This document shows, piece by piece, positions 23,149 through 26,948 of a stretch of DNA of 64,000 nt. The translations under genes and the position numbers were made by a program. A model generated the notes under the pieces. The model searched no databases and was not told the origin of the DNA. It saw only the letters and a program-made list of their open reading frames with translations. Source of the DNA: Emticicia sp. 21SJ11W-3 (GTDB lineage: Bacteria > Bacteroidota > Bacteroidia > Cytophagales > Spirosomataceae); contig NZ_CP092074.1 of assembly GCF_024138715.1 (NCBI RefSeq), forward strand, positions 1,178,001 through 1,242,000, read 5' to 3'. How positions within the stretch are numbered: position 1 is the first letter of the stretch; every line of letters begins with the position of its first letter.

Positions 23149-23811
23149 ATGCAAGAAATAAAAGCACTGATAGAAAAAGAAATACGTTTAGAATGGCGCC
23201 AGAAATATGCCCTTAACGGTATGCTTTTGTATATTATCAGTACAATTTTTGTTTGTTATATGAGCTTTAAGCTAAAAGTAGACGAGATAGAACCCATTAC
23301 CTGGAACACCCTGTTATGGATAATTCTGCTGTTTTCGGCGGTTAACTCAATCACCAAGAGTTTCACGCAAGAGGGCGCCGGGCGCCAACTCTATTATTAT
23401 ACGTTGGCCAGCCCACAGAGCATCATTCTGTCTAAGATTATTTACAACACCATGTTGATGCTGGTGCTGTCGTTACTGGGTTTTCTGATATACCTTGTTA
23501 TGATGGGTAATCCGGTTATGAACCTGCCGATGTATCTGGTTTGTCTTGTACTGGGGGCCATCGGTTTTGCTACTACACTTACTATGGTGGCTGGTATTGC
23601 CTCAAAGGCCGAGAATACCTCAACGCTGATGGCTATTCTGAGTTTCCCGATTATTTTGCCCATGCTGATGATGGTTATCAAGTTGTCGAAAAGTGCGATG
23701 GATGGTCTGGGCTGGGAGACAAGCTATGATGAAATTGCCATCTTACTGGCTATTGATGCCATAGTGTTGAGCATTAGTTACTTGCTTTTTCCGTATTTGT
23801 GGAGAAGCTGA
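23149..23811 (+). CDS. ccmB: Haem exporter permease CcmB
   Basis: 220 aa with six hydrophobic spans, the standard CcmB length. Typical segments are the N-terminal EIKALIEKEIRLEWRQKYALNG, LLWIILLFSAVNSITKSF, and the helix-rich C-terminal half with LVLGAIGFATTLTMVAGIASKA. It is the membrane part of the CcmAB transporter used to release haem from CcmE during cytochrome c maturation. The ATPase gene ccmA is not adjacent here. It heads the ccmB-ccmC unit, 33 bases from ccmC. Confidence 0.92.
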   Translation: MQEIKALIEKEIRLEWRQKYALNGMLLYIISTIFVCYMSFKLKVDEIEPITWNTLLWIILLFSAVNSITKSFTQEGAGRQLYYYTLASPQSIILSKIIYNTMLMLVLSLLGFLIYLVMMGNPVMNLPMYLVCLVLGAIGFATTLTMVAGIASKAENTSTLMAILSFPIILPMLMMVIKLSKSAMDGLGWETSYDEIAILLAIDAIVLSISYLLFPYLWRS

Positions 23812-23844: not shown

Positions 23845-24507
23845 ATGAGAAAATCGTGGTGGAAAATTTTATGTGTAGTGCTTTTGTTCTACACAGTTAT
23901 ACAGGGGATTGTGGGCAAAATACCACGCCAGCCTATTGTGAACGAGACTTTGAGGAATGTTTATTTTCATGTGCCTCTGTGGTTTGGTATGATGACCCTC
24001 ATGGCAGCCTCAGTATGGTTTGCTGTTAAATATCTAAGAAACGGAAACGTACAGGATGACGAATATTCGTCTGAGTTTGCCAATACTGCCATATTGTATG
24101 GCATTTTGGGCTTTCTGACAGGGGCTTTATGGGGTAACTATACCTGGGGAGACCCGATACCCAAAGACCCGAAAATTATTGCCGTTGAGGTGGGTCTGCT
24201 TATTTACTCTGCCTATTTTGTATTAAGAAGCTCTTTTGATGATGACCAAAAAAGAGGCCGGTTGTCGGCAGTTTACAATATATTTGCCTTTGCGGCCTTT
24301 ATGCCTTTGGTATGGATATTACCGCGAATGACAGACTCATTGCACCCTGGCAACGGGGGGAACCCCGCCTTTGGTAAGTATGACATGGATAACAGCGTGA
24401 GAATGGTGTTTTACCCAGCTATTATCGGCTGGACACTCCTGGGCGTATGGATGACAAGCCTGAGAATCAGACTGAGAGTTATTAAGCGGTTGAAGACTGA
24501 ACAATAG
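23845..24507 (+). CDS. ccmC: Cytochrome c maturation protein CcmC
   Basis: 220 aa integral membrane protein of the haem-handling (CcsA/CcmC) family that loads haem onto CcmE. Six spans are visible; the conserved His pair is represented by NVYFHVPLWFGMM and by a later His (SLHPGNGGNPAFG). The Trp-rich haem-handling motif is reduced: LWGNYTWGDPIPKDPK has the first WG and YTWG, but lacks the later Trp residues usual for the motif. ccmD, its normal downstream partner, is displaced by an inserted gene pair (24522-26288). Confidence 0.9.
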   Translation: MRKSWWKILCVVLLFYTVIQGIVGKIPRQPIVNETLRNVYFHVPLWFGMMTLMAASVWFAVKYLRNGNVQDDEYSSEFANTAILYGILGFLTGALWGNYTWGDPIPKDPKIIAVEVGLLIYSAYFVLRSSFDDDQKRGRLSAVYNIFAFAAFMPLVWILPRMTDSLHPGNGGNPAFGKYDMDNSVRMVFYPAIIGWTLLGVWMTSLRIRLRVIKRLKTEQ

Positions 24508-24521
24508 TAGAATAGTTTCTT

Positions 24522-25820
24522 ATGGAAAGGATAATTATCAAAAACTTCGGCCCAATAAAAGACGTTGATTTACAAATCAATGACTTTATGATTTTTATTG
24601 GGCCGCAAGCAAGTGGTAAGAGTACTATTGCGAAGTTGATATACTTCTATAAGAATTTACACAATGAAATCAGAAAGTTTTTATTTGAAAGAATTGCTAA
24701 TCTTGGAATAAGAGAGTTTTCGGAAAAGTATGAGCAAAATTATGCTTTAGGTTGTTTGGAATTTTATTTTTTTGATATTTTCCCAGATACAAAAATTTAT
24801 AAAGGATCAAATATTTATTTTTACTTTAATGCAAACTTTGCTCTTAAAATAAAAATAGATAATAATGGTGAATTGAATATTTCTTTACCAATAGAATTTG
24901 CAAATGATTTTGAGCGTACTCTTTCTGAAGCTAAAGAATTATATGATATAGACAGAGAAGACTTTAATTCCGCTGCAACTAAAGCCCAAGCTAGGATAGA
25001 TAGCTTTATCATTAAAACCTTAGATAGAACCTTTAGTGATAACCTTTATATTCCGGCGGGGAGGGGATTTATTTCCGTTATTTCAAGCCAAATTTTTAAC
25101 TTAAAAACAGAGAATTTGGACTATTTTATAAAAGAATTTGCCTATGCAATTAGATTTATAAGAAATGATATTACTCTGAGTGAATCAAATTTAATCAATC
25201 AATCAGAAGAACTAAAGGAGAAATATCTTTCAATTTATCGGATTTTAAATAGACTTCAATCGAGGATATTGAAAGGACGTTATTTATATGATAAGATAAA
25301 TCAGAAAACTGGGATTGAAATTGGAAATAATGATTTTATTCCTTTGGATAAGGTCTCATCAGGTCAGCAAGAAGCAGTTTGGGTCGTTCAATATCTAATT
25401 TACAGGATTTACCAAATCTCTTTACGTTCTTCCTTTACTGTTATTGAGGAACCAGAGGCTCACTTATACCCAGAATCTCAAAAAAGTATTACAGAATTAA
25501 TTGCAGTACTGGTGAATTTGTTAAATAATCAAGCCTTAATAACAACTCATAGCCCCTATATTTTGGCAGCAGTTAATAATTTACTTTATGCGAATAAAAT
25601 TGGTAAAACTCATGAAAAAGAAGTTTCTGAAATAGTAGATAAAAACTTATGGTTAGATTTCAATCGTGTTGATGCTTATTTTGTAGGAGGAGAAGGGAAT
25701 GAAGGGAAAATCAAAAGAATTATGGATGATGAACTAGAAATGATAGAGAATCAATATTTAGACAGTGCATCAAGCATAATTAATCAAGAGTTCGATTTAA
25801 TATATGATTTAGAAGACTAA
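24522..25820 (+). CDS. ABC/OLD-like AAA family ATPase of the ccm-embedded pair
   Basis: 432 aa. Order of motifs: IIKNFGPIKDVDL N-terminal strand typical of SMC/RecF/OLD ATPases, Walker A GPQASGKST (27-35), a helical middle with YIPAGRGFISVI (177-188), ABC-signature-like SSGQQEAVWV (279-288), Walker B VIEEPEAHLYP (307-317) and the H-switch TTHSP (341-345). There is no C-terminal Toprim domain, unlike OLD nucleases, and no membrane span. A nuclease-like small gene starts three bases after its stop, so the two are coupled. Base composition is far more AT-rich than in ccmC (12 G+C in 24841-24900 against 28 in 24361-24420). Role in anti-phage defence is inferred from similar ATPase-nuclease pairs. 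Confidence 0.85.
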   Translation: MERIIIKNFGPIKDVDLQINDFMIFIGPQASGKSTIAKLIYFYKNLHNEIRKFLFERIANLGIREFSEKYEQNYALGCLEFYFFDIFPDTKIYKGSNIYFYFNANFALKIKIDNNGELNISLPIEFANDFERTLSEAKELYDIDREDFNSAATKAQARIDSFIIKTLDRTFSDNLYIPAGRGFISVISSQIFNLKTENLDYFIKEFAYAIRFIRNDITLSESNLINQSEELKEKYLSIYRILNRLQSRILKGRYLYDKINQKTGIEIGNNDFIPLDKVSSGQQEAVWVVQYLIYRIYQISLRSSFTVIEEPEAHLYPESQKSITELIAVLVNLLNNQALITTHSPYILAAVNNLLYANKIGKTHEKEVSEIVDKNLWLDFNRVDAYFVGGEGNEGKIKRIMDDELEMIENQYLDSASSIINQEFDLIYDLED

Positions 25821-25823
25821 AAA

Positions 25824-26288
25824 ATGAGTAGAAAAAGTTTTCATCAATTTGATTCTAATTGTGAAAATCATAACAATGATAAAAGAGGAACAATTGTATT
25901 AACTGATATAGGTAAATCTCAATATAAAGTTTTTAATCCTAACAAAAAAAGAGTTTCAGAGTTAAAAGTTGATGGTTGCCTTATTAAGATTGGAGAGCGC
26001 TGTGATTATCTTTTACTCGTTTCGAATGATTCTCAATTTAAAAATAAGGATGCTTATTTCGTTGAATTAAAAGGTTCTGATTTAATGAAAGCAATAAGCC
26101 AAATAGATGCGAGTATTGAAACATTAAAAGGCAAATTAAATGACTTTAAAAGAGTATTTGGGCGAATTGTATTAACAAAAAATAATGTTCCGGATTTAAA
26201 TAATACTGCCATCATAAAACTTAGAAATAAACTAAAAAAGATGGATGGTAATTTGATATATAGAGTGAAACTTGAAGAACAAATTTAA
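25824..26288 (+). CDS. Small PD-(D/E)XK-like protein of the ccm-embedded pair
   Basis: 154 aa, no signal peptide. RCDYLLLVSN with D61, followed after 19 residues by YFVELKGSD with E81-L-K83, and Q93 in a helix right after, matches the D..ExK and helix-Gln pattern of Holliday-resolvase/restriction-type PD-(D/E)XK nucleases. The rest is Lys- and Asn-rich. Sequence family is not recognised by name, so nuclease activity is inference. The gene begins three bases after the ATPase stop and ends four bases before ccmD, so the pair is probably transcribed with the ccm genes. AT-rich like the ATPase gene and unlike the ccm genes. Confidence 0.75.
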   Translation: MSRKSFHQFDSNCENHNNDKRGTIVLTDIGKSQYKVFNPNKKRVSELKVDGCLIKIGERCDYLLLVSNDSQFKNKDAYFVELKGSDLMKAISQIDASIETLKGKLNDFKRVFGRIVLTKNNVPDLNNTAIIKLRNKLKKMDGNLIYRVKLEEQI

Positions 26289-26292
26289 AAAT

Positions 26293-26499
26293 ATGAAAAG
26301 AATATTAGCTCTGGTAATGATGACTCTGCTGTTTTCGACCAACCTTTTTGCGCAGCAGGAGGTAGAAATGGCCGATAAAATGCGCGCCGACGGCAAAATT
26401 TGGGTGGTTGTTGCTGTAATTGGCTTAGTGCTTGCAGGAATTATTACATATCTGGTTTTGTTAGATAGAAAGATTAGTAAAATAGAAAAAGGTTTATGA
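26293..26499 (+). CDS. ccmD: CcmD-like small membrane protein
   Basis: 68 aa from ATG at 26293. A signal-like first helix (RILALVMMTLLFSTNLFAQ) is followed by a short acidic stretch and one transmembrane helix (WVVVAVIGLVLAGIITYLVLLDRKISKIEK). In Bacteroidota this small protein lies between ccmC and ccmE and is thought to serve as CcmD, which helps release haem-CcmE. The start is the ATG following the nuclease-like gene; the in-frame ATG upstream at 26272 is inside that gene. ATGA overlap with ccmE. Confidence 0.82.
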   Translation: MKRILALVMMTLLFSTNLFAQQEVEMADKMRADGKIWVVVAVIGLVLAGIITYLVLLDRKISKIEKGL

Positions 26500-26948
26500 A
26501 AAAATCACATATTATTGCACTCGGAGTAATTGCGATAGCCGTTGGAATCATTATTTCTACAGTAGGCGACGCCAGTACTTATGTAGGTTTTACTGAAGCC
26601 GAATCATTGGCCAAAGAAGGCAACAATAAGTCGATACACGTTGTGGGTACTTTAAAAAAAGACAGCCAGGGTAAAATTGTAGGCATGATATATGACCCGG
26701 TAGCTGACCCGAACAGTTTTCAGTTTACGATGATTGATTCGTTGAACCGGGAAGAAAAAGTAATTTATAACCAGCCAAAACCACAAGACCTGGATAAGTC
26801 GGAGAAAGTGGTAGTAGTGGGTAGTATGGATTTACAAAACAAGGTATTCCGTGCAGACCAGATATTGCTGAAGTGCCCGTCTAAATACAATAATAACGAG
26901 TTGCAGGCAGAAGAAAGTAAGCCTGCGGTTTCTATGACAAAACCATGA
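26496..26948 (+). CDS. ccmE: Haem chaperone CcmE, cysteine type
   Basis: 150 aa periplasmic haem chaperone with an N-terminal anchor (HIIALGVIAIAVGIIISTVG), an OB-fold (KSIHVVGTLKKDSQGKIVGM, VVVVGSMDLQNKVFRADQILLKCPSKY) and a flexible tail. The residue normally forming the covalent haem bond is His in an HxxxY motif; here the position reads C-P-S-K-Y, i.e. the CxxxY variant known from some archaeal and deltaproteobacterial CcmE. Overlaps ccmD and the following gene by four bases each, so the unit is translationally coupled. Confidence 0.9.
   Translation: MKKSHIIALGVIAIAVGIIISTVGDASTYVGFTEAESLAKEGNNKSIHVVGTLKKDSQGKIVGMIYDPVADPNSFQFTMIDSLNREEKVIYNQPKPQDLDKSEKVVVVGSMDLQNKVFRADQILLKCPSKYNNNELQAEESKPAVSMTKP

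Follow-up and report, generated by a model that had tools for sequence, protein, structure and literature searches.

A two-gene unit of the WonAB kind, probably a phage-defence system, in the cytochrome c maturation operon of Emticicia sp. 21SJ11W-3, and probable replacement of the ATPase middle between alleles of its relatives

The cytochrome c maturation (ccm) operon of Emticicia sp. 21SJ11W-3 carries two additional genes between ccmC and ccmD, one for an ATPase and one for a small protein that is likely a nuclease. We analysed them in a window of 64,000 nucleotides (nt) (contig NZ_CP092074.1, positions 1,178,001 to 1,242,000; coordinates below are those of the window), and find that they form an inserted, conserved two-gene system. 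The most rational explanation, in which we have good confidence, is that the two genes are a phage-defence pair of the WonAB kind, intact and horizontally acquired, with the ATPase as sensor and the nuclease as effector, acting by abortive infection and without any role in haem delivery. New here, as far as alignments can tell, is that alleles of sister species at a shared core-gene site differ in the ATPase at about residues 46-174, while the ends of the ATPase and the flanking core genes are similar. The two genes are:

24522 to 25820, plus strand: gene of an OLD-type ABC ATPase, WonA-like and PDC-M29A-like, 432 amino acids (aa)
25824 to 26288, plus strand: gene of a small, probable PD-(D/E)XK-type nuclease, WonB-like, 154 aa

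Location and composition of the unit

An initial annotation, made from the letters alone, had described a unit of 432 and 154 aa between ccmC and ccmD, and both open reading frames (ORFs) are indeed found at the positions it gave. They are co-directional and separate ccmC from ccmD, with ccmB before and ccmE after. The unit starts 14 nt past the ccmC stop codon and ends 4 nt, rather than the three bases first counted, ahead of the ccmD start (gap 26289-26292).

23149 to 23811, plus strand: ccmB (PF03379, 2.3e-13)
23845 to 24507, plus strand: ccmC, left flank of the insertion (PF01578, 4.6e-12)
26293 to 26499, plus strand: ccmD (CcmD_alt), right flank, with its ATG at 26293 (PF20077, 1.3e-23)
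26496 to 26948, plus strand: ccmE (PF03100, 8.6e-12)

The G+C content of the unit (24522-26288) is 28.6%, with 23% and 16% at third codon positions, against 42-44% in ccmB and ccmC. So low a value is reached by 0.09% of the equal-length stretches in the window, the lowest of which begins at 24554, inside the unit. The AT-richness had been noticed from two samples of 60 bases, and those G+C counts, 12 at 24841-24900 and 28 at 24361-24420, are exact. The only match of the ATPase in its own genome is the ATPase itself.

A search of 58 related genomes for CcmC was successful in 56, at 57 places, from which 30 loci were fetched, one being that of the window. Neither gene of the pair is present at the 29 others, each from a different genome (tblastn, E ≤ 1e-3), and at E ≤ 1 these loci gave two chance-level matches to the small protein (E 0.17 and 0.51). 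ccmD was found adjoining ccmC in 26 of the 29, and two (L160 and L161) gave no ccmD match. Ten of the loci belong to the same genus, and in nine of these ccmD lies 28-75 nt behind ccmC. The tenth, L136, is the closest of them, with a ccmC 90% identical to that of the window; here a transposase-like ORF, judged by eye, follows ccmC before the contig ends, which suggests that the gap behind ccmC has also been entered by another element.

No terminal repeats are evident at the edges of the unit. A short repeat at both edges (TTGAAGA..ACAA) had been proposed as an insertion scar, an interpretation we reject because the right-hand copy encodes LEEQI, the C-terminus of the nuclease; many of 40 nuclease relatives end alike (LEEQL, IEEKI, LEENI and similar), and the window holds 29 copies of TTGAAGA (16 on the plus strand, 13 on the minus strand). 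The -33/-7 pattern, which we take to be the Bacteroidota-type promoter, is absent from the pair and occurs twice in the window, in neither case nearby, compared with 4.5 occurrences expected by chance. Between 22900 and 27400 there are 13 sigma-70-like sites against 18.5 in shuffled sequences, and no terminator-like site against 2.6; this is an absence of patterns, and no evidence of read-through. At the start of the ATPase gene there is a perfect 13-nt inverted repeat (24548-24605) with a strong predicted hairpin (RNA z-score -4.5), at a place where none of the 113 other alleles scanned exceeds 9 nt. It follows partly from the codons for GPI..IGP, and may be due to chance or to translation control.

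The ATPase and the nuclease

The ATPase matches the Pfam families AAA_15 (1.8e-32, spanning residues 2-347) and AAA_21 (2.2e-16), and the PADLOC model PDC-M29A (1.2e-28, 98.5 bits). Its AlphaFold2 (AF2) model has a predicted local distance difference test score (pLDDT) of 87.1, and the nearest folds (VIA-align Z of about 15-18.5) are PtuA of Septu and retrons, followed by SMC/Rad50 heads and AriA; a profile of the ATPase searched against PDB sequences finds OLD, PtuA, AriA and Rad50. The motifs first read as intact (Walker A, SSGQQ, EEPE and TTHS) are all present, and the key residues listed below do not vary among the 68 aligned sequences, the window included. This alignment (A7), from which L070, L073, L117 and L133 were left out, was also used for the Mantel test below.

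24600 to 24626, plus strand: Walker A region GPQASGKST, residues 27-35 (G27, G32, K33 and S34 invariant)
24657 to 25043, plus strand: candidate for the sensor module, residues 46-174; in other genomes, related alleles have this segment replaced or hyper-diverged
25047 to 25064, plus strand: YIPAGR motif, residues 176-181 (R181 invariant)
25356 to 25370, plus strand: ABC signature SSGQQ, residues 279-283 (S279, S280, G281 and Q282 invariant)
25443 to 25457, plus strand: end of Walker B, IEEPE, residues 308-312 (E309, E310, P311 and E312 invariant)
25542 to 25559, plus strand: H-switch TTHSPY, residues 341-346 (invariant, including H343)
25575 to 25817, plus strand: C-terminal extension, residues 352-432, beyond the AAA_15 match and probably where the nuclease docks

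All 65 aligned sequences of the small protein (alignment A5, the window and 64 of 71 nucleases) share D50, D61, E81, L82, K83 and Q93, which bears out the D61, E81-x-K83 and Q93 pattern that had been pointed to. The seven most diverged sequences were aligned apart together with that of the window and three others (A6, 11 sequences), and D50, D61, E81, K83 and Q93 are invariant in this set too.

26004 to 26006, plus strand: D61, predicted active site
26064 to 26072, plus strand: E81-L82-K83, predicted active site
26100 to 26102, plus strand: Q93, in the helix that follows the ExK strand

The AF2 model (pLDDT 91.5, predicted template modelling score (pTM) 0.89) has D61 ahead of strand 62-67, E81 and K83 on the next strand, 75-84, and Q93 in helix 87-105. 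The nuclease of the window thus shows the hallmark of the PD-(D/E)XK fold, that is, a conserved D and a (D/E)xK on adjacent strands of an alpha-beta core. Many of the proteins that VIA-align places near the model (Z 4-6) are enzymes of the PD-(D/E)XK superfamily, namely Card1, Can2, EndoMS, EcoT38I, FokI, CdiA-CT, BamHI, PspGI, Avs4 and Cap4. Pfam, NCBIfam and PADLOC offer no family for the small protein, and PHROGs gives nothing better than E 0.034. Conserved residues and predicted fold, neither of which alone proves it, together make it likely that the protein is a PD-(D/E)XK nuclease. A diverged branch of relatives (L116, L117, L119, L120, L122, L123, L124, L127, L128 and L132) has a longer nuclease of about 180-230 aa, in which D, ExK and Q are kept.

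Distribution and neighbourhood of the pair

A search with the small protein found it at 10 places in 9 other genomes of the order Cytophagales (390 searched), in 2 phage-like records and on 2 plasmids, and at all 14 of these related loci a homologous ATPase lies directly upstream. With a nuclease profile, 27 of 395 genomes of the phylum match at E ≤ 0.001 and 36 of 390 genomes of the order at E ≤ 1e-6, the genome of the window being counted in both. Each of the 39 places in the order has the ATPase immediately 5' of the nuclease, with the ATPase frame broken at one of them (L207). Searched from the side of the ATPase, the small protein is found downstream at 71 of 80 named loci, always within 136 nt; the other nine comprise two that end at a contig edge, two with a diverged copy, one with a remnant (by eye) and four without a recognised copy. 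Going by record titles, the pair occurs among records of Bacteroidota, Firmicutes, cyanobacteria, Nitrospirae, Planctomycetes, Desulfobacterota-type bacteria and Brachyspira, and the distances of its two proteins are correlated over 68 loci (Mantel r 0.89, reached in 0 of 2000 permutations). Among viral contigs, 68 pattern matches to nuclease relatives were obtained, none of them confirmed. A supposed natural fusion of ATPase and nuclease at L052 was discarded, the 518-aa frame being another protein by eye. One relative, on the Bacteroides finegoldii plasmid NZ_OY725969.1 (L016), lies between glycosyltransferase genes of a polysaccharide cluster.

To identify neighbours, 20 of them were picked by eye and then scanned, with gene starts and neighbours taken from simple ORF calls. 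By eye, several relatives stand beside genes for DNA repair or replication: recJ (L056, where RecJ comes before the pair and LptB a little after), radA (L058), an ftsK-like gene (L055, with a match below the curated cut-off), uvrC (L018, together with HisD), dinB for DNA polymerase IV (L120) and dnaE for DNA polymerase III alpha (L025). Elsewhere the pair adjoins UMP kinase (L017), YggS (L020), methylmalonyl-CoA mutase (L021 and L024), ClpB (L022) and GlyA (L123), and further neighbours, assigned by eye from their N-termini, are Frr, LpxC/LpxA, Dxs and AccA. At L022 three tandem small gene pairs, resembling PIN-type toxin-antitoxin genes by eye, lie 5' of the pair.

One genus illustrates how such a site is occupied. 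pyrH was found in nine of its ten genomes, and in two of the nine the pair separates pyrH from frr, with spacings of 6/1 and 2/2 nt, while in the other seven frr lies directly behind pyrH. Insertion into core operons recurs, but there is no rule. We considered the possibility that the pair always lies inside operons, and had to give it up: among 38 places of the order (L207 left out) both neighbours are co-directional at 17 and not at 17, four lack a flank, and five have neighbours within 30 nt on both sides. Systems of this sort can live as bare two-gene units in core operons (ccm, pyrH-frr and, going by N-termini, lpxC-lpxA), places that a search based on islands would not cover.

Variation within the ATPase

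One case of variation is that of the two sister alleles between pyrH and frr (L195 and L196), which are 97% identical in the N-terminus of the ATPase, 90% in the C-terminal extension and 74% in the nuclease, and only 17-21% in the middle. From pyrH on, their DNA is 77-78% identical as far as nt 118 of the ATPase gene; nothing then aligns until nt 828, where similarity at this level sets in again and continues through frr. Other sites show similar breaks in the DNA alignment of the ATPase gene, from 147 to 758 at mutB (L199/L202), from 135 to 495 at dxs (L211/L213), from 135 to 705 and from 181 to 768 at accA (L204/L210 and L210/L217), and from 165 to 831 at recJ-lptB (L056/L057), where most of the nuclease is unaligned too. 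The flanking genes align on both sides at pyrH-frr, dxs, recJ-lptB and in L204/L210; at mutB an alignment was seen for the left gene only, and L210/L217 have only the left gene in common. The limits of the block were taken from 12 pairs chosen for showing a low middle, together with three control pairs. In the 12, identity is low at about residues 46-174 (numbering of the window), ending just before or at YIPAGR, and several have a second low block up to about 274; the controls (L025/L197, L023/L201 and L024/L239) have no such block. A segment that is wholly different between sister alleles, with its surroundings kept, is what would be expected of a recognition module.

A broader comparison was made with pairwise identities, with L207 and L068 (the latter from the same record as L017) left out and L250 kept despite its partial ATPase of 136 aa; L205 and L209 occupy different sites. 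There are 25 pairs in which the mean identity of N-terminus, C-terminus and nuclease is at least 0.75. The middle is 0.19-0.42 identical in nine, all from Cytophagales, and 0.59-0.98 in the other 16, two of which are from Cytophagales. When Cytophagales with an N-terminal identity of at least 0.85 are considered (46 pairs, 26 sequences), the C-terminal extension follows the nuclease (Pearson 0.85), while the middle follows both poorly (0.33 and 0.36) and the part from the signature to the H-switch better (0.61). In other taxa, at the same N-terminal identity (21 pairs, 15 sequences), all segments track each other (0.88-0.98). The sets of 25 and 46 pairs lack independence and were drawn from a small number of sites. 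Judged by these identities, the middle and the part made up of C-terminal extension and nuclease have been shown to have separate histories in Cytophagales. The allele L241 is, by sequence, a mosaic, with a middle like that of L024/L239 (0.64) and a nuclease like that of L199 (0.78), against 0.20 and 0.38-0.39 the other way round.

The alignments make it likely that the middle has been exchanged and has not merely diverged. A rather doubtful alternative, though one to be taken seriously, is that it only changes at a very high rate, being weakly constrained or under strong diversifying selection. Some related alleles do keep an identity of 0.54-0.64 in the middle (L217/L249, L024/L239 and L024/L241), and the three close control pairs lack a low block. 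In addition, no donor of the segment of the window was found in 380 genomes of the order, and no convincing relative: with ATPase residues 42-150 as query, 40 of the 380 match at E ≤ 0.1, the genome of the window included, the next best at E 0.0037. Fast evolution does not, however, sit well with the correlation of middle and nuclease, which is 0.98 in the 21 pairs outside Cytophagales and falls to the 0.33 given above inside, nor with DNA similarity that stops and then resumes between similar stretches, nor with the mosaic L241, whose nuclease is like that of L199/L240.

We hypothesize, as a proposition with about equal weight for and against it, that the family is an allelic immune receptor, in which a segment some 130 residues long, located between Walker A and YIPAGR, and the C-terminal extension plus nuclease, are swapped as two separate cassettes. 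At fixed core-gene sites the ATPase chassis would stay and the segment would be swapped by recombination, for which the conserved stretches at Walker A, YIPAGR and the signature would offer the homology for crossovers. The first cassette (24657-25043 in the window) would serve phage recognition, and the second would hold the effector and its docking surface. How infection is sensed is an open question in the excerpts of the papers naming WonAB (PMC12137116, PMC12409358), and the ATPase middle, at about residues 46-174, is a candidate for this phage-sensing module. Among the literature matches listed, titles and beginnings of abstracts describe no variable sensor or swapped domain for the ATPase-nuclease family, and the nearest idea, in the abstract-level text of PMC10907252, is targeted hypermutation of putative antigen sensors.

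Function and alternative explanations

For the pair of the window we infer complex formation, sensing, abortive infection, an RNA target and read-through transcription. The ATPase would dimerise like other OLD/Rad50-type ABC ATPases, hold the small nuclease through its C-terminal extension and, upon sensing infection, activate the PD-(D/E)XK nuclease so that the infected cell is stopped; WonB suggests, by analogy, RNA of the translation machinery as a possible target. A place between ccmC and ccmD would suit the unit because the tight, co-directional gap would provide transcription without breaking the operon.

Several observations weigh against a defence pair of the WonAB kind. The relatives lie, by eye and without a scan of their neighbours against defence models, mostly among core genes and not in recognisable defence islands, which fits a role outside defence as well. 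The fold likeness of the nuclease is modest: no VIA-align Z value reaches 8 and the top rank goes to an unrelated enzyme, yeast acetyl-CoA carboxylase, Foldseek has no match at E ≤ 0.001 (best E 0.008, Mus81-Eme1), and the nuclease profile finds nothing better than E 1.6 among PDB sequences. The PDC-M29B model does not match the nuclease of the window even at E ≤ 10 (0 families), and the residue correspondence with WonAB given below follows the order of motifs, with WonA and WonB themselves unaligned.

A toxin-antitoxin or otherwise selfish pair, in which a nuclease toxin is held in check by the ATPase and persists by addiction in core operons, would also be a closely spaced two-gene unit, and some copies do sit in operons that are hard to lose, e.g. 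pyrH-frr. We consider it improbable. The catalytic residues of the ATPase are invariant, the pyrH-frr pair is absent from seven of nine genomes of one genus, and overproduction of WonB is toxic only with a working WonA, by which its authors, in the excerpted text, regard simple sequestration as ruled out (PMC12137116).

That the pair belongs to a named system other than WonAB/PDC-M29, i.e. PARIS, Septu, Gabija or PD-T4-4, seems to us quite improbable. The top PADLOC match of the ATPase is in fact AriA of PARIS (3.3e-36), PtuA, GajA and PD-T4-4_A match it too, PD-T4-4_B matches 4 of the 65 aligned nucleases (best 9e-4), and one relative, L080, scores slightly higher with PD-T4-4_A than with PDC-M29A. 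The AriA models are, however, 373 and 304 positions long, nearly the same as AAA_15 and AAA_21 (374 and 304), and look generic; a PARIS assignment was rejected for this reason and because the partner differs. The partner has no AriB, HNH, other PADLOC or Pfam match, no OLD TOPRIM or helicase was found, and the nuclease partner argues against PARIS, Septu and Gabija alike.

A regulatory or accessory role in cytochrome c maturation, for which only the tight fit of the unit behind ccmC and ahead of ccmD would speak, has next to no probability, as the pair is absent from all 29 other ccmC loci fetched and its relatives adjoin genes as different as recJ, radA, ftsK-like, pyrH, hisD-uvrC, mutB, clpB, glyA and dnaE; together with the modest fold likeness, this agrees with the first suggestion of an inserted pair of an ATPase and a PD-(D/E)XK-type protein unrelated to haem delivery. 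Neither of the two results named beforehand as speaking against that suggestion, a conserved place of the pair in ccm operons of related species or a predicted structure lacking the PD-(D/E)XK fold, was obtained.

Comparison with known systems

The initial annotation could not match the pair to a named system. It can, however, be matched to a described kind, of which WonAB is the example tested by experiment. According to the excerpted text of PMC12137116, WonAB comes from the WASA-1 prophage of Vibrio cholerae and protects against ICP1; both genes are needed, infection is aborted and translation inhibited, and protection needs K34, R182, E300 and H333 of WonA (R182A loses it) and K71 of WonB, which was modelled on the C-terminal extensions of WonA. 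The excerpted text of PMC12409358 adds that recognition is still under study and that no escape phages have been isolated. The pair of the window is likewise a two-gene operon of an OLD-type ABC ATPase with a C-terminal extension followed by a small PD-(D/E)xK nuclease, and by motif its K33, R181, E310 and H343 correspond to K34, R182, E300 and H333 of WonA, and K83 to K71 of WonB. It differs in being chromosomal and in a core operon of Bacteroidota, whereas WonAB lies in a prophage and its homologues are, in the same excerpt, reported mainly from Gram-negative bacteria (PMC12137116).

The operon called 'OLD-ABC ATPase + novel REase', predicted in silico by Krishnan et al. 2020 with an example from Anaerovibrio (as cited in the excerpted text of PMC12137116), shares an OLD-ABC ATPase and a novel partner of restriction-enzyme fold, a likeness by description and not by alignment, and relatives of the pair were found in Selenomonadaceae (L130 and L134). 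The PADLOC candidate PDC-M29 has an A-model that matches the ATPase of the window, as given above, and a B-model that misses its nuclease and matches 29 of the 65 aligned nucleases at E ≤ 0.1 (best 1.6e-16); our literature search found no paper naming PDC-M29. PD-T4-4 also combines an ATPase with a PD-(D/E)XK nuclease (PMC10952713, in part) and gives weak profile matches, but its A-model scores 1.2e-17 on the ATPase of the window, below PDC-M29A, and its B-model has no match to the nuclease.

Gabija, in the same part of PMC10952713, has a GajA with a C-terminal TOPRIM and an adjoining GajB helicase, whereas the 432-aa ATPase of the window has no TOPRIM match and its neighbours are ccmC and the small protein, with no helicase. 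PARIS resembles the pair in its AAA_15/OLD-type ATPase with a separate effector nuclease, and AriA is a fold match at Z 15.4. The effector of PARIS, AriB, is a TOPRIM/DUF4435 protein; the partner in the window is in contrast PD-(D/E)XK-like in its predicted fold. Septu and the retron PtuAB supply the best fold match of the ATPase (PtuA, Z 18.5). PtuB of Septu is an HNH nuclease, whereas the partner in the window shows the ExK pattern and matches neither PtuB nor HNH models. By its motifs, its architecture and the PADLOC matches, we file the pair in the ccm operon as a probable new member of the WonAB kind, together with 'OLD-ABC ATPase + novel REase' and PDC-M29.

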